DNA from: Desulfovirgula sp.
GTDB taxonomy: Bacteria > Bacillota > Desulfotomaculia > Desulfotomaculales > Desulfovirgulaceae
DNA length: 40,680 bases
NCBI GenBank assembly: GCA_020725525.1
Contig: DYEX01000087.1
Location: forward strand, 1 to 40,680
Direction of reading: 5' to 3'
Within the stretch, counting starts at the first letter, position 1; the number at the start of each line of letters is the position of its first letter. A program made the translations under genes and the position numbers. The notes below the pieces were generated by a model. That model saw only the letters and a program-made list of their open reading frames with translations, searched no databases and was not told where the DNA came from. Positions 25,912-39,138 of this stretch are shown here, in pieces.

Positions 25912-25928
25912 AAATTAATTAAATATGT

Positions 25929-26193
25929 GGGGCAGGTCCCCACCAGGGGATAATAGGGAAGACCGGGGAGCAGGAGCACCCTGCTTAAGCCGGCGCGGTC
26001 CCGCCACTGTAACCGGGGAGGAACCCGCAGGGTGCCACTGGCCCAGCACTCACTGGTGAACTGCTGCATCCGATGGTATGCTTGTTCAGCAGTGAAAATA
26101 TAACAGCATGGTTTAACCGATGTCACTGGTGAGTGCTGGGCCGGGAAGGCGCGGGCGTCCAAAGATCCGGGAGCCAGGAGACCTGCCTGCCCC
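25929..26193 (+). promoter_or_regulatory. Cobalamin riboswitch with an extended arm
   Basis: Cobalamin aptamer signatures are clear: ATAGGGAA near 25951, GCCACTG twice (near 26011 and 26033), GGGAAGGC near 26144, and a B12 box GGAGCCAGGAGACCTGCC (26169-26187). P1 is formed by GGGGCAGGTC (25929-25938) and the GACCTGCC-CCC end. Between GCCACTG and GGGAAGGC lies a long extra hairpin: about 20 pairs with two adjacent wobble pairs, running from GGCCCAGCACTCAC (about 26040) to GTGAGTGCTGGGCC (about 26142). An internal ACTGCTG/CAGCAGT hairpin sits inside it. It controls the cbi operon together with the terminator at 26279. Confidence 0.93.
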
Positions 26194-26278
26194 TTCCGCT
26201 GGCCTTACCCGAAAGAGAAAAGCCAGCGGGGAGCCTTTCTATCTTCGCGCGAAAGATAGCAGGCGTTAAGACTACCTG

Positions 26279-33633: not shown

Positions 33634-33725
33634 GGTTTTGAAACTTTCAAAGCCAAAAAATGATGCCCGTGTATAATTCCTCCCCGGCCTGCTTAAAATA
33701 GTATGTGGCCGGAAAGGAGGACACA

Positions 33726-34415
33726 ATGGGCAGTAAACTAACCAGATATGCTGGCGTGGTTACCTTTTTTCTTGTGTTAACCTGGGTTACGGCCGGAAAA
33801 CAGGTAGAAGCCAGCACATCCTGGAGTAGTGGCAACGACCTGACCCACTACAATTATATGCTTTGCTATACCGTCAGGTCAGGAGATACCCTGTACGATA
33901 TAGCCAGAGCTTACAATGTACCTCTGGCTAAACTGATGGATACGAATAAACTAAAGGACACCATCATCAGGCCCGGCGATGTATTACTGGTACCGGACCG
34001 GGTCAGTGACAACGTCCCGGCAGTCCTTTCCCGCGGAGGTATTTCCCGGGAGGAGTTGATGCTCCTGGCCAGGCTAATCCACGCCGAAGCCCGGGGAGAA
34101 AGTTTCACCGGTCAGGTGGCCGTGGGGGCAGTAATTCTTAACCGGGTAGCCAGCCCAGGCTTTCCCAAAACCATCCGGGAAGTAATCTTTCAGAAAGACA
34201 GCAACGTCTTTCAGTTCTCCCCGGTGGAGGACGGCTCTATCGACCTGGAACCGGATGAAACAGCCATTAACGCAGCCCTGGAGGCTCTGGCGGGGCGAGA
34301 TCCTACCAACGGGGCTCTGTTCTTCTATAACCCCCGTACTGCCACAGACCGCTGGATTCGTACCCTGCCGGTAGTCACCCGCATCGGTAACCATGTGTTT
34401 GCTACCAAAGCCTAA
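33726..34415 (+). CDS. LysM plus SleB-like cell-wall hydrolase
   Basis: 229 residues. A signal peptide (about 1-29, hydrophobic TRYAGVVTFFLVLTWV), one LysM peptidoglycan-binding repeat (about 47-90, YTVRSGDTLYDIARAYNVP) and a C-terminal hydrolase domain (108-229). In the latter, the HAEARGE motif places the catalytic Glu at about 121, and VILNRVASPGFPKTIREVI is typical. SleB/CwlJ-type enzymes are lytic transglycosylases of spore cortex during germination, so a sporulation/germination role is likely. A GTG at 33705 is rejected; ATG 33726 follows AAAGGAGG. A TATAAT lies at 33672-33677, without a clear -35. The stop overlaps a bidirectional terminator. Confidence 0.9.
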   Translation: MGSKLTRYAGVVTFFLVLTWVTAGKQVEASTSWSSGNDLTHYNYMLCYTVRSGDTLYDIARAYNVPLAKLMDTNKLKDTIIRPGDVLLVPDRVSDNVPAVLSRGGISREELMLLARLIHAEARGESFTGQVAVGAVILNRVASPGFPKTIREVIFQKDSNVFQFSPVEDGSIDLEPDETAINAALEALAGRDPTNGALFFYNPRTATDRWIRTLPVVTRIGNHVFATKA

Positions 34416-34445
34416 AAAGAGCCGGCTGTCATACCGGCTCTTTTT
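34414..34445. terminator. Bidirectional terminator between convergent genes
   Basis: A perfect 12-bp stem AAAAAGAGCCGG (34414-34425) / CCGGCTCTTTTT (34434-34445) with an 8-nt loop. The T run on one strand and the A run on the other let it serve both the SleB-like gene and the minus-strand NTPase gene. Confidence 0.9.
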
Positions 34446-35265
34446 CCCTGGGGAAATATAACTCCCGCACCAGGATGTTTACGGATTTGACCACCAGGCC
34501 GGTCATTTCCTCCACTCGCCTTTTCACCGCCCCCTGGATTTCCCGGCCCACCTGGTTTAATATGCAACCGTAGTATAAAACCGGATGTACCTCTATAACC
34601 ACTCCGTCTACCTCCCTGTGTACGGAAACCCGCCCGGCATTTTTCACTCCCGGCACTTCTTCTGCCGCCCGGGATACAATTGCTACCAGAGCACTGGTAG
34701 TAATGGTCAGTTTACCATAATAAGTAAAAGTGGGGCGCACCACCGATTGTTCCAGCCAGCTGCGCCTACCCTGCGGGCCTTTGCGACCCAGAAAAACCCT
34801 TAAAGAATCGGTAAAGATATCCGGGAACCTTTTTTTGACCTCCACCGTTGGGGCGGGAATGACATGTTTACTGTACCGTGCGCGGATGGTCAGGGCCTGG
34901 CGTATTTCCCGGGGAGAAGCAATTTCTTCGATGGAAATGACCCGGCATACCGGGGGCAGGCCCAACCTGGCGGCAATTTTTTCCACCATTCCCACCGAAG
35001 TACCCAGAATTAAAACCCGGGTCGGATTAAGTTCCTGTAACACTACCCGGGCCTGCCGGGCATGCTCATCATCCATAAAAAGGGCTGCCTTAATGGCACC
35101 AATACGGGTAGCCTGGCGTTTTGCCGATATGCCCGCAAGGATACGATCCCCTTTGATCAAAAGGCCATCATCAATGATGATTTCTGCTTCGACTTCGTGA
35201 GCGGTAGCAATGGCCCGGAAACTCTTTCCAGTACCGCTGGGACCTACCAGGGCATAAACTTCCAC
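34429..35265 (-). CDS. P-loop NTPase fused to an Asp23-like domain
   Basis: 278 residues. Walker A GPSGTGKS is at residues 8-15, followed by an NTPase-like region with DDGLLIKGDRI and VLILGTSVGMVEKIAARLG. Residues 183-278 (YGKLTITTSALVAIVSRAA, EVPGV, a REVDGVVIEVHPVLYYG strand, VRREVEEMTG-like ending) match the Asp23/DUF322 alkaline-shock family, which is usually a stand-alone small protein near membranes. The fusion suggests a nucleotide-controlled scaffold or envelope factor, but no function is established here. ATG 35265 lies upstream of a 226-nt spacer. Its 3' end overlaps the terminator. Confidence 0.8.
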   Translation of the reverse strand: MEVYALVGPSGTGKSFRAIATAHEVEAEIIIDDGLLIKGDRILAGISAKRQATRIGAIKAALFMDDEHARQARVVLQELNPTRVLILGTSVGMVEKIAARLGLPPVCRVISIEEIASPREIRQALTIRARYSKHVIPAPTVEVKKRFPDIFTDSLRVFLGRKGPQGRRSWLEQSVVRPTFTYYGKLTITTSALVAIVSRAAEEVPGVKNAGRVSVHREVDGVVIEVHPVLYYGCILNQVGREIQGAVKRRVEEMTGLVVKSVNILVRELYFPREKEPV

Positions 35266-35491
35266 GTTGTTCCCCCCAAATTAACATAACTAGTATAATT
35301 CGCCGTTAAAACGCTACTTTCCTTTTTAAATTAAAATGAACAGTAGATGTTTCTGACTAAAATGGGATAATATACCATCATAATCTGAAGTATCTCCCTG
35401 TTAAGAGAGTAATAGGCCAGCAGCTTTCACCAGGAGTGGAAATTTTTCAATATATTAACGAAATAGCAATAGGAGTGCCAAATGAAAAAAA

Positions 35492-35665: not shown

Positions 35666-35699
35666 GTAATAATACCGCAAAACACAAGAGGTGGGAATC

Positions 35700-36131
35700 T
35701 TGTCCCGGGAATTTGCCGCCGCCATAGGTAAACAGTTTCGTCTCAACGAGCAAGAGGTTGCACTGTTGGGTAAGAACATCCGGCAACTCTCCCGCCTGGA
35801 ACGGCGTACTTATTTTGAAAAACTAAAACCCAGGGAAAGGGAGTTTAAGCTTTTTTTAAAGGAAAAGTATGCCCTCCTGGATGAAGGAGGACGCCAGAAA
35901 TGGATTGATACCACCGTACAGAGCCTTCTGGACAAAGGAGGTGATCCAGATCTGGCCGATAGCCTGGTTATGGATGTAATTGGCCGGCTGCAGGTCTACC
36001 GGTGCTTACGGGAAAAGGCAGAAAACGAAGGCATTCGTTTAAAGGCCCTCACAAATTTTGGTGGGCTTTCCATGGTGCTTTTCCTGGTAGTACTTATTAC
36101 GGCGTTCATACTTTACCTGACTGGTCGCTAA
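35700..36131 (+). CDS. Small protein with C-terminal membrane anchor
   Basis: 143 residues from TTG 35700. It is helical and highly charged (many Lys, Arg and Glu) over residues 1-110, then has one hydrophobic segment (LSMVLFLVVLITAFILYL) close to the C-terminus, with the tail ending TGR. It looks like a tail-anchored membrane protein with a cytoplasmic domain. No family is recognised. GTG 35691 is an alternative but lies within the AGAGGTGG ribosome-like site, so TTG 35700 fits better. It follows the small lipoprotein by 34 nt and precedes the DUF3786 gene by 19 nt, so the three may be one unit. Confidence 0.7.
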   Translation: MSREFAAAIGKQFRLNEQEVALLGKNIRQLSRLERRTYFEKLKPREREFKLFLKEKYALLDEGGRQKWIDTTVQSLLDKGGDPDLADSLVMDVIGRLQVYRCLREKAENEGIRLKALTNFGGLSMVLFLVVLITAFILYLTGR

Positions 36132-36823: not shown

Positions 36824-36835
36824 ATTTTTTGCGGG

Positions 36836-36913
36836 CGGGATGTAGCTCAGTTTGGCTAGAGCGCACGGTTCGGGACCGTGAGGTCGCAGGTTCAAATCCT
36901 GTCATCCCGACCA
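36836..36913 (+). tRNA. tRNA-Pro (anticodon CGG)
   Basis: Acceptor arm CGGGATG (36836-36842) pairs with CATCCCG. The anticodon arm CACGG/CCGTG (36864-36868, 36876-36880) has loop TTCGGGA, giving anticodon CGG. The T arm is GCAGG-TTCAAAT-CCTGT. Discriminator A and an encoded CCA end at 36913. C1-G72 pairing fits bacterial proline tRNA. Confidence 0.97.
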
Positions 36914-36918
36914 GGGAT

Positions 36919-36960
36919 AAACCCGTAAGCCCAGTAAAATCAAGGGCTTGCGGGTTTTCT
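36919..36960 (+). terminator. Terminator after tRNA-Pro
   Basis: AAACCCGTAAGCCC (36919-36932) pairs over 14 bp, with one G-U, to GGGCTTGCGGGTTT (36944-36957), followed by TTCT. Confidence 0.85.
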
Positions 36961-37218
36961 AATTTTCAGAAAGGGGTGGCCGGGTGCCTTCCAGAACCCT
37001 TTATCCCTCTCCCTTTTTTTGACCCCTCCGGTTTCCCGCTTAAGCCCATTATATACCGGTAAGAGACCAAAATAGGTATTGCCAACCAATATTGCATGAT
37101 ATAAACTAATATCATGTGATGTTCGCCTTTTATTCTCCCGGAATTTTTTCGGGAAAGGGCAGGATAGTAACATTTATCATCTGTCAAAAAAATGCCATTT
37201 TAAGGCAGGGACACCCCT
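36961..37218. other. Spacer between tRNA-Pro terminator and HTH gene
   Basis: No gene or RNA is recognised. A small CCCG/CGGG hairpin lies around 37137-37155. No duplicate of the tRNA 3' end was seen nearby, so there is no evidence of an attachment site. Confidence 0.4.
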
Positions 37219-37872
37219 TTGGACGCTAAAAAAGACGTAAAACAACCGGGGGGAAGGCGCCCCCGGGAAGAGCAGGGGAAAATACGTTCAGCAGTGCACG
37301 CCCTTTTACGGGAGGGCCTTTCGCCGGAAGAAATCTGCTCCCGGCTGGCCATCTCCCAGAACACCTTTTACTATCACGTACGCCGGCTGCGCGCTGCCGG
37401 AAACGTCTATCCCGGCCTGTCATCCCGGCGCGGCCGGCCGCCAAAATCCGCCGGTGAAAACGCGGTGCAGATCGCCGCCCAGTGGCTGGCGGTAAAAGAA
37501 CAGTCCCGGGACCGGGAAATAAGCAGGCTATTAATGTACCTTTTGGAAGAAGCCTACAGCCGGCAGCTGATCGACCTGCAGGTGTACCGTGATCCCCTTC
37601 CCCACCAGAGCCCGGTTCTGGAACGGCACCCGCGCATAAACGGCTACGACCTGGTCACCGCCCTGAGCACGGAAGACCTGCGCTTCCTGCGCGCCCTGGT
37701 CGACGAACTGATGAAAAACGGGCCAGGCAAAGACCAGAAAAATTTAAGCCAGATCCTGTCCGGCGCCCTGGGGGAAAGGGAAAAGGGAAAACTGCTGGCC
37801 ATAGCCCGGACACTGAAAACCTTCGACCTGACCAACCTGCGGGAAAACGCCCGGCGGATATTGGACAATTAA
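37219..37872 (+). CDS. Putative HTH DNA-binding protein, function unknown
   Basis: 217 residues from TTG 37219. After a basic N-terminus (VKQPGGRRPREEQG), residues about 22-58 form a helix-turn-helix-like segment (REGLSPEEICSRLAISQNTF, then YYHVRRLRAAG) typical of transcription factors or phage/transposon DNA-binding proteins. The rest is helical and charged, with no recognised domain. The gene is visibly GC-richer (GGCCGGCCGC, CCGGCGC) than the AT-rich DNA on both sides, so acquisition is possible. The start is weak: TTG with a modest GGCAGGG upstream. Next to a tRNA and decayed DNA, it may be part of a small mobile or relic region. Confidence 0.65.
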   Translation: MDAKKDVKQPGGRRPREEQGKIRSAVHALLREGLSPEEICSRLAISQNTFYYHVRRLRAAGNVYPGLSSRRGRPPKSAGENAVQIAAQWLAVKEQSRDREISRLLMYLLEEAYSRQLIDLQVYRDPLPHQSPVLERHPRINGYDLVTALSTEDLRFLRALVDELMKNGPGKDQKNLSQILSGALGEREKGKLLAIARTLKTFDLTNLRENARRILDN

Positions 37873-38334
37873 AAAAAAAGGTATAAATCCGGCAGGATTT
37901 TCTACAACTGGTGTCGTAATAGCTTAAATAGATGATTCTTTCCATCAATAATCATACTCTAGAACGGAACCGATGAGCGGCGGCTGATAACTGGGCGCCT
38001 GCAGCCGCAGTGAGGTAGTGGCGCAACCAGCCGTTCCACATTTGCTCATCATACCACTGCGGGGGTACCAGCGGAAGGTGACAACGGAACGGTATTATTA
38101 TTTAATCAGGTTAAATGCGAAGGTGGCCAGTGCTGCGGGCTTTCCTTAAAGGGATACGTATGCCCTTTTGGTGGTGAAATTCTAATAATAAATTGGGATT
38201 TTCAACCAGCAGAGTGCTGAGATTGATGAAGCAGGTGGGCAAACAGCTATCTAACCTGATGGCCGATTAGGGTCATCAAGTGGAATGGTTTAGCACGTCC
38301 AAGACCGAATAAACATAAATAAGGGGAGTTTTTT
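37873..38334. pseudogene. Apparently decayed coding region (possible transposase remnant)
   Basis: No intact gene. On the minus strand, 37970-38095 reads as an open peptide (PLVPPQWYDEQMWNGWLRHYL, then TAAAGAQLSAAAHRFRSRV) ending in a stop. Just upstream on that strand, about 38100-38147, GKPAALATFAFNLIK resembles the end of an insertion-sequence transposase but is flanked by stops. On the plus strand, 38190-38270 gives another short unrecognised frame. Taken together it looks like fragments of one or more lost genes. The assignment to a family is weak. Confidence 0.35.
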
Positions 38335-39138
38335 ATGGAAGGACTGCGCCGGAGTACGTTAACAAGGGAAAACATAGCGGAATATTCTTTTCAGTTACTT
38401 AACAAAATACAAAAAGATCTTTCGCTAAATACCAGGCCTTCCATTACAGTATTGTTATGTACTCTGAACGAAGAAAAAAATCTCCCGTACGTCCTGCCCC
38501 GCATCCCAGATTATGTCGATGAAGTTTTAATAGTCGATGGCCACTCGAAAGATAACACCGTTCCCCTGGCAAAAAAACTTTACCCCAATGTGCGTATCCT
38601 TTACCAGCCGGGTAGGGGTAAAGGCGACGCCCTGCGCCACGGGATTAAGAACGCCCGGGGAGACATCATTGTCATGCTGGACGCCGATGGCTCCATGGCA
38701 CCGGAAGAAATTCCCCGCTTTGTTGAACCACTCTTAAATGGCTATGATTTTGTTAAGGGTTCGCGCTTCTTGCCCGGCGGCGGCACGGCGGACATGCCCA
38801 CGCACCGGAAGTTCGGCAACTGGGTTTTCACCACTTTAACTAACCTATTTCACCGCTGCCGGTATACTGATCTTTGCTATGGATATAACGCCTTCTGGAA
38901 AAAAGCATTTGAAAAAGTTTCTTTCCAGGGGAACGGGTTTGAGGTAGAAACGGAAATAAATATCAAAATCAAAAAGGCAGGTTTGAAGGTAACCGAGGTG
39001 CCCAGTTACGAAGCCCCCAGGTTAAATGGAAAAGGAAACCTGCATAGTTTAAAAGACGGGTGGAGAATTTTAAAGACAATTTTTAAGGAACTGGTTCCTG
39101 TCGGGGCAAGAACGCAAAATGAGACAGTATCCGTGTGA
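38335..39138 (+). CDS. Family 2 glycosyltransferase
   Basis: 267 residues. GT-A fold glycosyltransferase of the dolichyl-phosphate-mannose-synthase-like family 2. The nucleotide-binding N-terminus is ITVLLCTLNEEKNLPYVLP, IVDGHSKDNTVPLAKKL follows, and the DxD metal motif is in IIVMLDADGSMAPEEI. Acceptor-region FVKGSRFLPGG and CYGYNAFWKKAFE are typical. No transmembrane segment is seen. ATG 38335 follows AAGGGGAG. With the methyltransferase and GT4 gene that follow, it suggests a cell-surface polysaccharide or glycolipid cluster continuing to the right. Confidence 0.9.
   Translation: MEGLRRSTLTRENIAEYSFQLLNKIQKDLSLNTRPSITVLLCTLNEEKNLPYVLPRIPDYVDEVLIVDGHSKDNTVPLAKKLYPNVRILYQPGRGKGDALRHGIKNARGDIIVMLDADGSMAPEEIPRFVEPLLNGYDFVKGSRFLPGGGTADMPTHRKFGNWVFTTLTNLFHRCRYTDLCYGYNAFWKKAFEKVSFQGNGFEVETEINIKIKKAGLKVTEVPSYEAPRLNGKGNLHSLKDGWRILKTIFKELVPVGARTQNETVSV

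Follow-up and report, generated by a model that had tools for sequence, protein, structure and literature searches.

A P-loop NTPase domain joined to an Asp23-type domain in one gene of Desulfovirgula and related genomes

Asp23-family proteins and the fused gene

Proteins of the Asp23 family are highly expressed in Gram-positive bacteria, as stated in passages of two papers (PMC5437119, PMC6954212). In excerpts of the second, Staphylococcus aureus Asp23 is described as a membrane-located, filament-forming protein that binds AmaP; excerpts of the first give Bacillus subtilis YqhY a genetic link to acetyl-CoA carboxylase, and state that genomes with Asp23 genes always have two or more of them. 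The canonical proteins YqhY and YloU (PF03780) have no NTPase module, and their gene contexts differ: YqhY lies beside a gene reading as accC in the window genome, and YloU adjoins the gene for the fatty-acid kinase FakA in G187 and G061. AmaP (alkaline shock response membrane anchor protein, NF033218) carries its Asp23-type C-terminal domain behind an N-terminal membrane part, and this domain is loop-less—it has no glycine-rich/LGRKNL loop.

Here we describe a gene in which a P-loop NTPase takes the place of the membrane part of AmaP, in front of an Asp23-type domain that is likewise loop-less. The gene lies in the window, by which we mean the whole 40,680-nucleotide stretch of a Desulfovirgula sp. 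contig that was analysed (DYEX01000087.1). An earlier sequence-only reading had proposed this pairing of domains within one open reading frame without naming a strand; the frame is borne out, on the minus strand, and its features are collected in Table 1.

Table 1. Positions of the fused gene, its parts and its convergent neighbour in the window
Feature	Coordinates	Strand	Basis or remark
Whole fused gene, 278 aa	34429..35265	minus	GTG at 35265, stop codon 34431-34429
Shine-Dalgarno-like GGGGGG	35272..35277	minus	6 nt upstream of GTG; read from sequence
P-loop domain, residues 1-133 (b1, P-loop, aA, b2-DDG, b-hairpin, b3, b4)	34867..35265	minus	AlphaFold2 models
Walker A GPSGTGKS, residues 8-15	35221..35244	minus	Invariant core, after strand 2-7 in model
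DDGLLI motif, residues 32-37, end of b2	35155..35172	minus	D32, D33, G34 invariant; A1, A2, A3 alignments
LILGTS motif, residues 85-90, end of b3	34996..35013	minus	No acidic Walker B residue; alignments and AlphaFold2 model
Linker, residues 134-187, with HVIPAPTVEVKK and VRPTF motifs	34705..34866	minus	Conserved, pLDDT < 50; AlphaFold2 and alignments
Asp23-type domain, residues about 176-272	34450..34740	minus	Lacks the ~19-residue loop of canonical Asp23; Pfam, fold match, alignment, profile-profile
Convergent neighbour, LysM and SleB-type Hydrolase_2 cell-wall hydrolase	33705..34415	plus	13 bp from the fused gene's stop

The plus-strand frame over 34429-35265 is interrupted by stops. A chance or wrong-frame reading is ruled out by the minus-strand frame itself, by full-length matches in 127 of 299 genomes, and by low dN/dS values. 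The latter, computed against five congeners (for L006, dS exceeds 1 and is saturated), are 0.09-0.15 over the P-loop domain, 0.04-0.08 over the linker and 0.08-0.20 over the Asp23 domain; judged by these substitution rates, the gene is under purifying selection. A promoter-like site was found at 35404-35377, but five such sites were found where 3.0 were expected, so it carries no weight.

Domains and linker of the fused protein

Conservation was read from three alignments, each of which includes the window protein. A1 adds 34 of the 46 other loci L002-L047, taken from whole-protein searches with rows that were not chosen by motif; A2 and A3 add 67 and 78, respectively, of the best 80 of at least 560 loci, A3 leaving out L061 and L083. 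Because the search for A2 and A3 loci used patterns of the P-loop or of DDG, conservation at those motifs is overstated in both. A separate conservation count took in 45 of 47 loci, the other two having missed the motif search.

The window protein has the Walker A pattern GxxxxGK[ST] after its first strand, which places it in the P-loop NTPase superfamily. G8, G11, G13, K14 and S15 of this motif are invariant in all 35 rows of A1, and in A2 and A3 as well; other positions invariant in A1 include T12, D32, D33, G34, G45, K49, F63, S90, M93, R128, H134, P137, P178 and G184. Most of these are confirmed by the 79 rows of A3—K14, S15, D32, D33, K49, S90, R128, H134 and P137 are without exception there—with T12 the exception and G184 lying beyond the end of that alignment. 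The third strand terminates without an acid, and the invariant acids D32 and D33 stand at the end of b2 instead. AlphaFold2 models the domain confidently, with pLDDT of about 87-97 over residues 1-130.

Comparison with known families leads to the superfamily and no further. Pfam returns P-loop families only below threshold, on residues 2-69 of the window protein; among the 68 members of A2, weak matches at E<=0.1 go to ABC_tran in 57 and to AAA in 50. Foldseek gave no match at E<=0.001 for the domain; its best is gluconate kinase (probability 1.00, E 2e-3), and cytidylate, shikimate and adenylate kinases are also matched. The best VIA-align result (Z 6.2, rmsd 3.9 over 116) falls in a range where, according to the tool, the two structures may share no more than a common arrangement. 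In profile alignment with hhalign, the N-terminal part of MiaA gave the longest match of six families, 92% over 102 columns; the other five are ABC (94%, 39 columns), DnaC (84%, 20), shikimate kinase (71%, 74), adenylate kinase (53%, 68) and RecA (39%, 19). However, adenylate kinase aligned to MiaA itself gives 87%, so the MiaA value is not diagnostic and assigns no family. A MiaA-like identity was therefore dropped as lying within the superfamily background. The MiaA model TIGR00174 (cut-off 148.65 bits) does not match the window protein at E<=1, and it matches 15 of 68 A2 members at E<=0.1 (best 6.4e-4); its sole match in the window genome is a different gene, on contig C42. The gluconate kinase model TIGR01313 (cut-off 113.75 bits) has no match at E<=1e-15 or over its cut-off in 149 genomes, the window genome included, and reaches 8 of 68 A2 members at E<=0.1 (best 0.023). 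The spacing from GKS to DD might suggest an HPr kinase; no HPr kinase is among the 50 Foldseek and 50 VIA-align matches listed for the domain.

With the P-loop small-molecule kinases—gluconate, shikimate and adenylate/cytidylate kinase, and also MiaA—the fused protein thus has in common the Walker A motif, acids that end b2 and the top Foldseek matches. It differs in that no kinase model reaches its cut-off on the window protein, with weak E-values only among relatives, and in that the fused family has motifs of its own (DDGLLI, SAK, LGTS, HVIPxPT and VRP). On profile and predicted-fold evidence, the P-loop domain is of kinase type at superfamily level only.

The Asp23 assignment is firmer. 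PF03780 matches residues 212-268 of the window protein at 44.8 bits against a gathering cut-off of 28 (E 1.8e-11) and matches all 68 A2 members at E<=0.1; a six-frame search with this model at E<=0.001 recovered the fused copies in nine of ten genomes, missing that of G149. HMMER aligns just positions 49-106 of the 108 in the model, and profile-profile comparison, which covers 89-95 columns, gives 99.1% with YqhY, 98.8% with YloU and 98.3% with AmaP (a profile of three sequences). By this comparison of profiles the C-terminal domain is the same as that of canonical YqhY and YloU, which differ from it by an extra loop of about 19 residues, and a false Asp23 match is ruled out. The sequence-only reading, which had suggested Pfam and profile searches as a check, is upheld in its central claim of a Walker A NTPase and an Asp23 domain in one gene; its limits for the latter, residues 183-278, are close, and the whole-domain alignment, which starts near a VRPxFxxxG motif at about residue 176 and appears to span the domain end to end, moves them to those of Table 1. 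Its remark that Asp23 proteins are normally small and separate overlooked AmaP, a membrane protein with such a domain at its C-terminus.

AlphaFold2 predicts a mostly confident a-b-b-a-b domain over about residues 188-270. In fold, the modelled residues 188-272 match CDF metal transporters in their cytoplasmic domains, which dimerise (against MamM, Z 12.2 with rmsd 1.8 over 79 residues).

Within the family, several comparisons link the fused domain to AmaP; profile scores rank YqhY first. Residues 183-265 of the window protein match positions 84-165 of the 166 in the AmaP model, which is also the best NCBIfam match; its 30.3 bits lie below the cut-off of 55, and no NCBIfam model reaches its cut-off on this protein. 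A tree of 26 sequences, from which L190, L193, L207, L197 and three Asp23 matches without a locus were left out, unites the fused proteins and AmaP at 0.98, the AmaP sequences branching from within the fused ones; in a larger tree, the 68 fused sequences fall together at 0.49 and group with AmaP weakly, at 0.20. The domain certainly belongs to the Asp23 family, in which it forms a class of its own, perhaps nearest to AmaP. The N-terminal parts set the two apart, and a simple hydropathy scan of the window protein found no transmembrane-like segment (top 19-residue mean 1.26, none above 1.6); seven of the 68 A2 members have a window above 1.6. The fused protein is probably cytosolic.

Between the two domains lies the linker, whose residues 176-187 count in the alignment as the start of the Asp23 domain. 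Mean entropy in A2 is 1.11 bits over residues 134-157, 2.70 over 158-170 and 1.21 over 171-187, against 1.53 for the P-loop domain and 2.35 for residues 188-272. The two outer parts of the linker are therefore the best-conserved stretches of the protein, yet they are unfolded in the AlphaFold2 monomer model; the motif-based choice of A2 loci favours conservation in the P-loop, not in the linker. Strong conservation without predicted structure is the oddest feature of the fused protein—it is what would be expected of a part that becomes ordered on a nucleotide, an oligomer or a partner.

Distribution and family status

The fusion is genuine and ancient, and relatives of Clostridia commonly carry it. 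Full-length matches occur in 25 of 41 genomes, its own included, with 13 more matching on the Asp23 part only. In a sample of 299 phylum genomes the fusion was found in 127 (E<=1e-12), in 126 of them as a single copy; the remaining genome, G189, has two copies and is listed as 7% contaminated. In each of the 128 places the alignment begins no later than residue 13 and reaches at least residue 257; for six of them the listing gives a single stop codon within the match, with open frames of at least 269 aa. No free-standing P-loop domain was found: a P-loop-only profile run over the 299 genomes recovered the same 127 and one 30-residue fragment in G057, a genome that is 82% complete. The sequence-only reading had proposed looking at phyletic distribution, and its observation proves right and understated—the fusion is widespread, mostly single-copy, and its P-loop part was never seen alone.

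A contig collection holds at least 560 candidate stretches encoding relatives. The best 80 of these include sequences from Pelotomaculum, Moorella, Heliophilum, Sporomusa, Propionispora, Schwartzia, Tepidanaerobacter, Ruminiclostridium and Geosporobacter, along with two metagenome bins under the names Armatimonadetes and Deltaproteobacteria, labels that we take to be wrong. A mobile, phage or defence gene was considered and rejected: relatives are absent from IMG/VR and from a phage collection, the window protein has no PADLOC match and one weak PHROGs match (E 0.04), and a plasmid collection yielded a single relative, 36% identical, in a Monoglobus record. That copy is annotated 'Asp23/Gls24 family envelope stress response protein' and sits between the genes for Rex and a DNA glycosylase.

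No whole-length family model covers the window protein in Pfam, NCBIfam, PHROGs or PADLOC, in agreement with the earlier statement that no function is assigned, and among the open-licence PMC papers listed by literature searches, no title or abstract opening deals with a P-loop/Asp23 fusion or its function. This is, then, a common gene without a whole-length family model in four libraries.

Two further Asp23-type genes of the window genome stand close together on contig C134. One is its AmaP (L131 6364-6894, 79.9 bits against the cut-off of 55); the other is YqhY-like (L131 7002-7481) and follows a gene whose translation reads as accC. Across the phylum sample, canonical Asp23 was found at E<=1e-20 in 288 of 299 genomes and in 122 of the 127 with the fusion—co-occurrence that, given a near-universal partner, is no evidence of a link. 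This and the other co-occurrence counts given below (FakA, SpoIVA) ignore descent. Of the five fusion genomes in which no canonical Asp23 was found at this threshold, G059, G147 and G182 are incomplete, and G316 (99%) and G325 (100%) are near-complete. The latter two, at a threshold that would miss weaker copies, are at odds with the two-copy statement in the excerpt of PMC5437119, and they speak against an obligatory canonical Asp23 partner.

Proposed function, rival explanations and other features of the window

Our tentative preference, which we put at somewhat less than an even chance, is that the fused protein may be a regulator or kinase gated by nucleotide, which would dock on Asp23-family partners by means of its C-terminal domain and regulate an envelope or lipid process. 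The C-terminal domain would pair with itself or with other Asp23-family proteins, such as AmaP or the YqhY type linked to acetyl-CoA carboxylase; binding or turnover of ATP at the P-loop would draw the linker into the active site or withdraw it; and the nucleotide state, or phosphorylation of some substrate, would regulate a process, in the envelope or in lipid synthesis, that Asp23 proteins organise. The putative active-site residues are conserved; since no acid ends b3, activity could be absent. Counting against this reading, the fused gene stands on contig C52, apart from the two other Asp23-type genes of its genome. A coupling of nucleotide state to a membrane scaffold was also what the sequence-only reading had suggested. 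It is the most natural interpretation of the fusion, and we treat it as a hypothesis because the protein has no transmembrane-like segment and because G316 and G325 have the fusion without a canonical Asp23 match.

An unlikely reading goes further: the protein might be the switch, driven by nucleotide, that governs the Asp23 envelope scaffold. As a soluble and ATP-fuelled equivalent of AmaP it would set when and where Asp23-family proteins assemble, through a conserved linker that folds only on assembly. We know of no earlier energy-coupled component of the Asp23 system, so this would be the first such part of a system that is poorly understood, and about two fifths of the sampled phylum genomes have the protein. 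A conserved, mostly single-copy and enzyme-like Asp23 member offers a handle on that system, testable by point mutations of K14, D32, D33 and H134.

The preferred reading has to be weighed against several others. The fused protein may phosphorylate small molecules or nucleotides, or act as a transferase like MiaA, with an Asp23-type domain that makes only dimers or oligomers and has no envelope link; we find this doubtful, yet nearly as likely as a role on the envelope scaffold. It is favoured by a P-loop closest to the kinase type, in the Foldseek matches and in the long MiaA alignment, by a C-terminal fold common to the CDF cytoplasmic domains such as that of MamM, and by the two near-complete genomes with the fusion and no canonical Asp23 at the threshold used. 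Set against it are a similarity that stays at superfamily level (ABC scores higher than MiaA, but over 39 columns), a predicted secondary structure in which no separate lid or base-binding insert appears, and the lack of a neighbour constant enough to name a pathway. That the P-loop might be catalytically dead, a structural or nucleotide-sensing module, would fit a b3 without a terminal acid and acids that end b2 (DDG) in its place; in several small kinases, however, the key acid is likewise at the end of b2, and all 35 A1 rows keep the P-loop Lys and Ser along with D32 and D33, so we consider it decidedly unlikely.

Gene context and co-occurrence bear on two further explanations. Of 81 sequences, the window and 80 loci, 78 entered the neighbour counts, since L073, L087 and L114 had no focal gene called; open reading frames were called by length rather than by a gene finder, and some loci are cut off at contig ends. 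No constant operon partner was seen across these 78. In 20, a DnaD-domain gene, a DnaC-like gene or both occur within five genes, in three arrangements (convergent, divergent and same strand), and their identity was confirmed for three example proteins; this might point to a primosome-linked ATPase of the DnaD or DnaC/DnaI helicase-loading kind, perhaps one that ties the start of replication to the membrane. Common descent gives related genomes the same neighbours, however, so the 20 loci are not independent, and in the other 58, the window included, neither gene was called within five genes. Other loci have instead a PHP-domain gene directly upstream (15 of 78), Rex with a DNA glycosylase (partly by reading of single loci), or YtxC with DUF6062, and we give the primosome a slim chance. 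As for FakA (YloV), whose gene normally pairs with the Asp23 gene yloU, the fused protein could be a non-orthologous stand-in: at E<=1e-20 the FakA model TIGR03599 matches 265 of the 299 genomes, 12 of them below the cut-off of the model and 253 above it, and the fusion is present in 30 of the 34 genomes without a match against 97 of the 265 with one (Fisher p 8e-9, ignoring kinship). FakB (DegV) is the carrier on which FakA acts; at E<=1e-10 it is absent from the window genome and from 32 of the 34 FakA-less genomes, including all 30 that carry the fusion, whereas all 28 FakA-bearing genomes tested, a hand-picked part of the 265, have it. With FakB lost along with FakA, nothing is left to replace, and 97 genomes hold both FakA and the fusion; the stand-in idea is largely refuted, and we give it almost no credence. 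The joint loss of FakA and FakB across the phylum sample is an observation in its own right. A spore-specific role was likewise rejected on the distribution of SpoIVA among the 299 genomes: it is missing from 20 of the 127 with the fusion, so a role in sporulation only fails, and is present in 141 of the 172 without.

Returning to the window, its fused gene belongs to a group of 14 of the 78 sequences with a SleB-type gene directly downstream; we do not claim this neighbour as a functional partner. On the other side, a 146-aa open reading frame at 35691-36131 (+) has no family match at cut-off and has relatives close to the fused gene elsewhere (cluster 20, six sequences). Beyond it lies a tRNA-Pro (cgg) at 36836-36913 (+), with which the open reading frame 36829-37062 overlaps and is therefore probably not a gene, and then, at 37219-37872 (+), a 217-aa protein with a helix-turn-helix start like the N-termini of IS630 transposases (sub-threshold in NCBIfam; HTH_20 over cut-off). 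The window also holds two riboswitches. A cyclic di-GMP-II riboswitch (RF01786) at 37957-38041 (+), 60.0 bits, lies about 300 bp ahead of the open reading frame 38335-39138, which we take to be a family-2 glycosyltransferase; a cobalamin riboswitch (Rfam RF00174) at 25917-26204 (+), 112.3 bits, is followed downstream by a CbiC gene and further genes reading as cobalamin biosynthesis.
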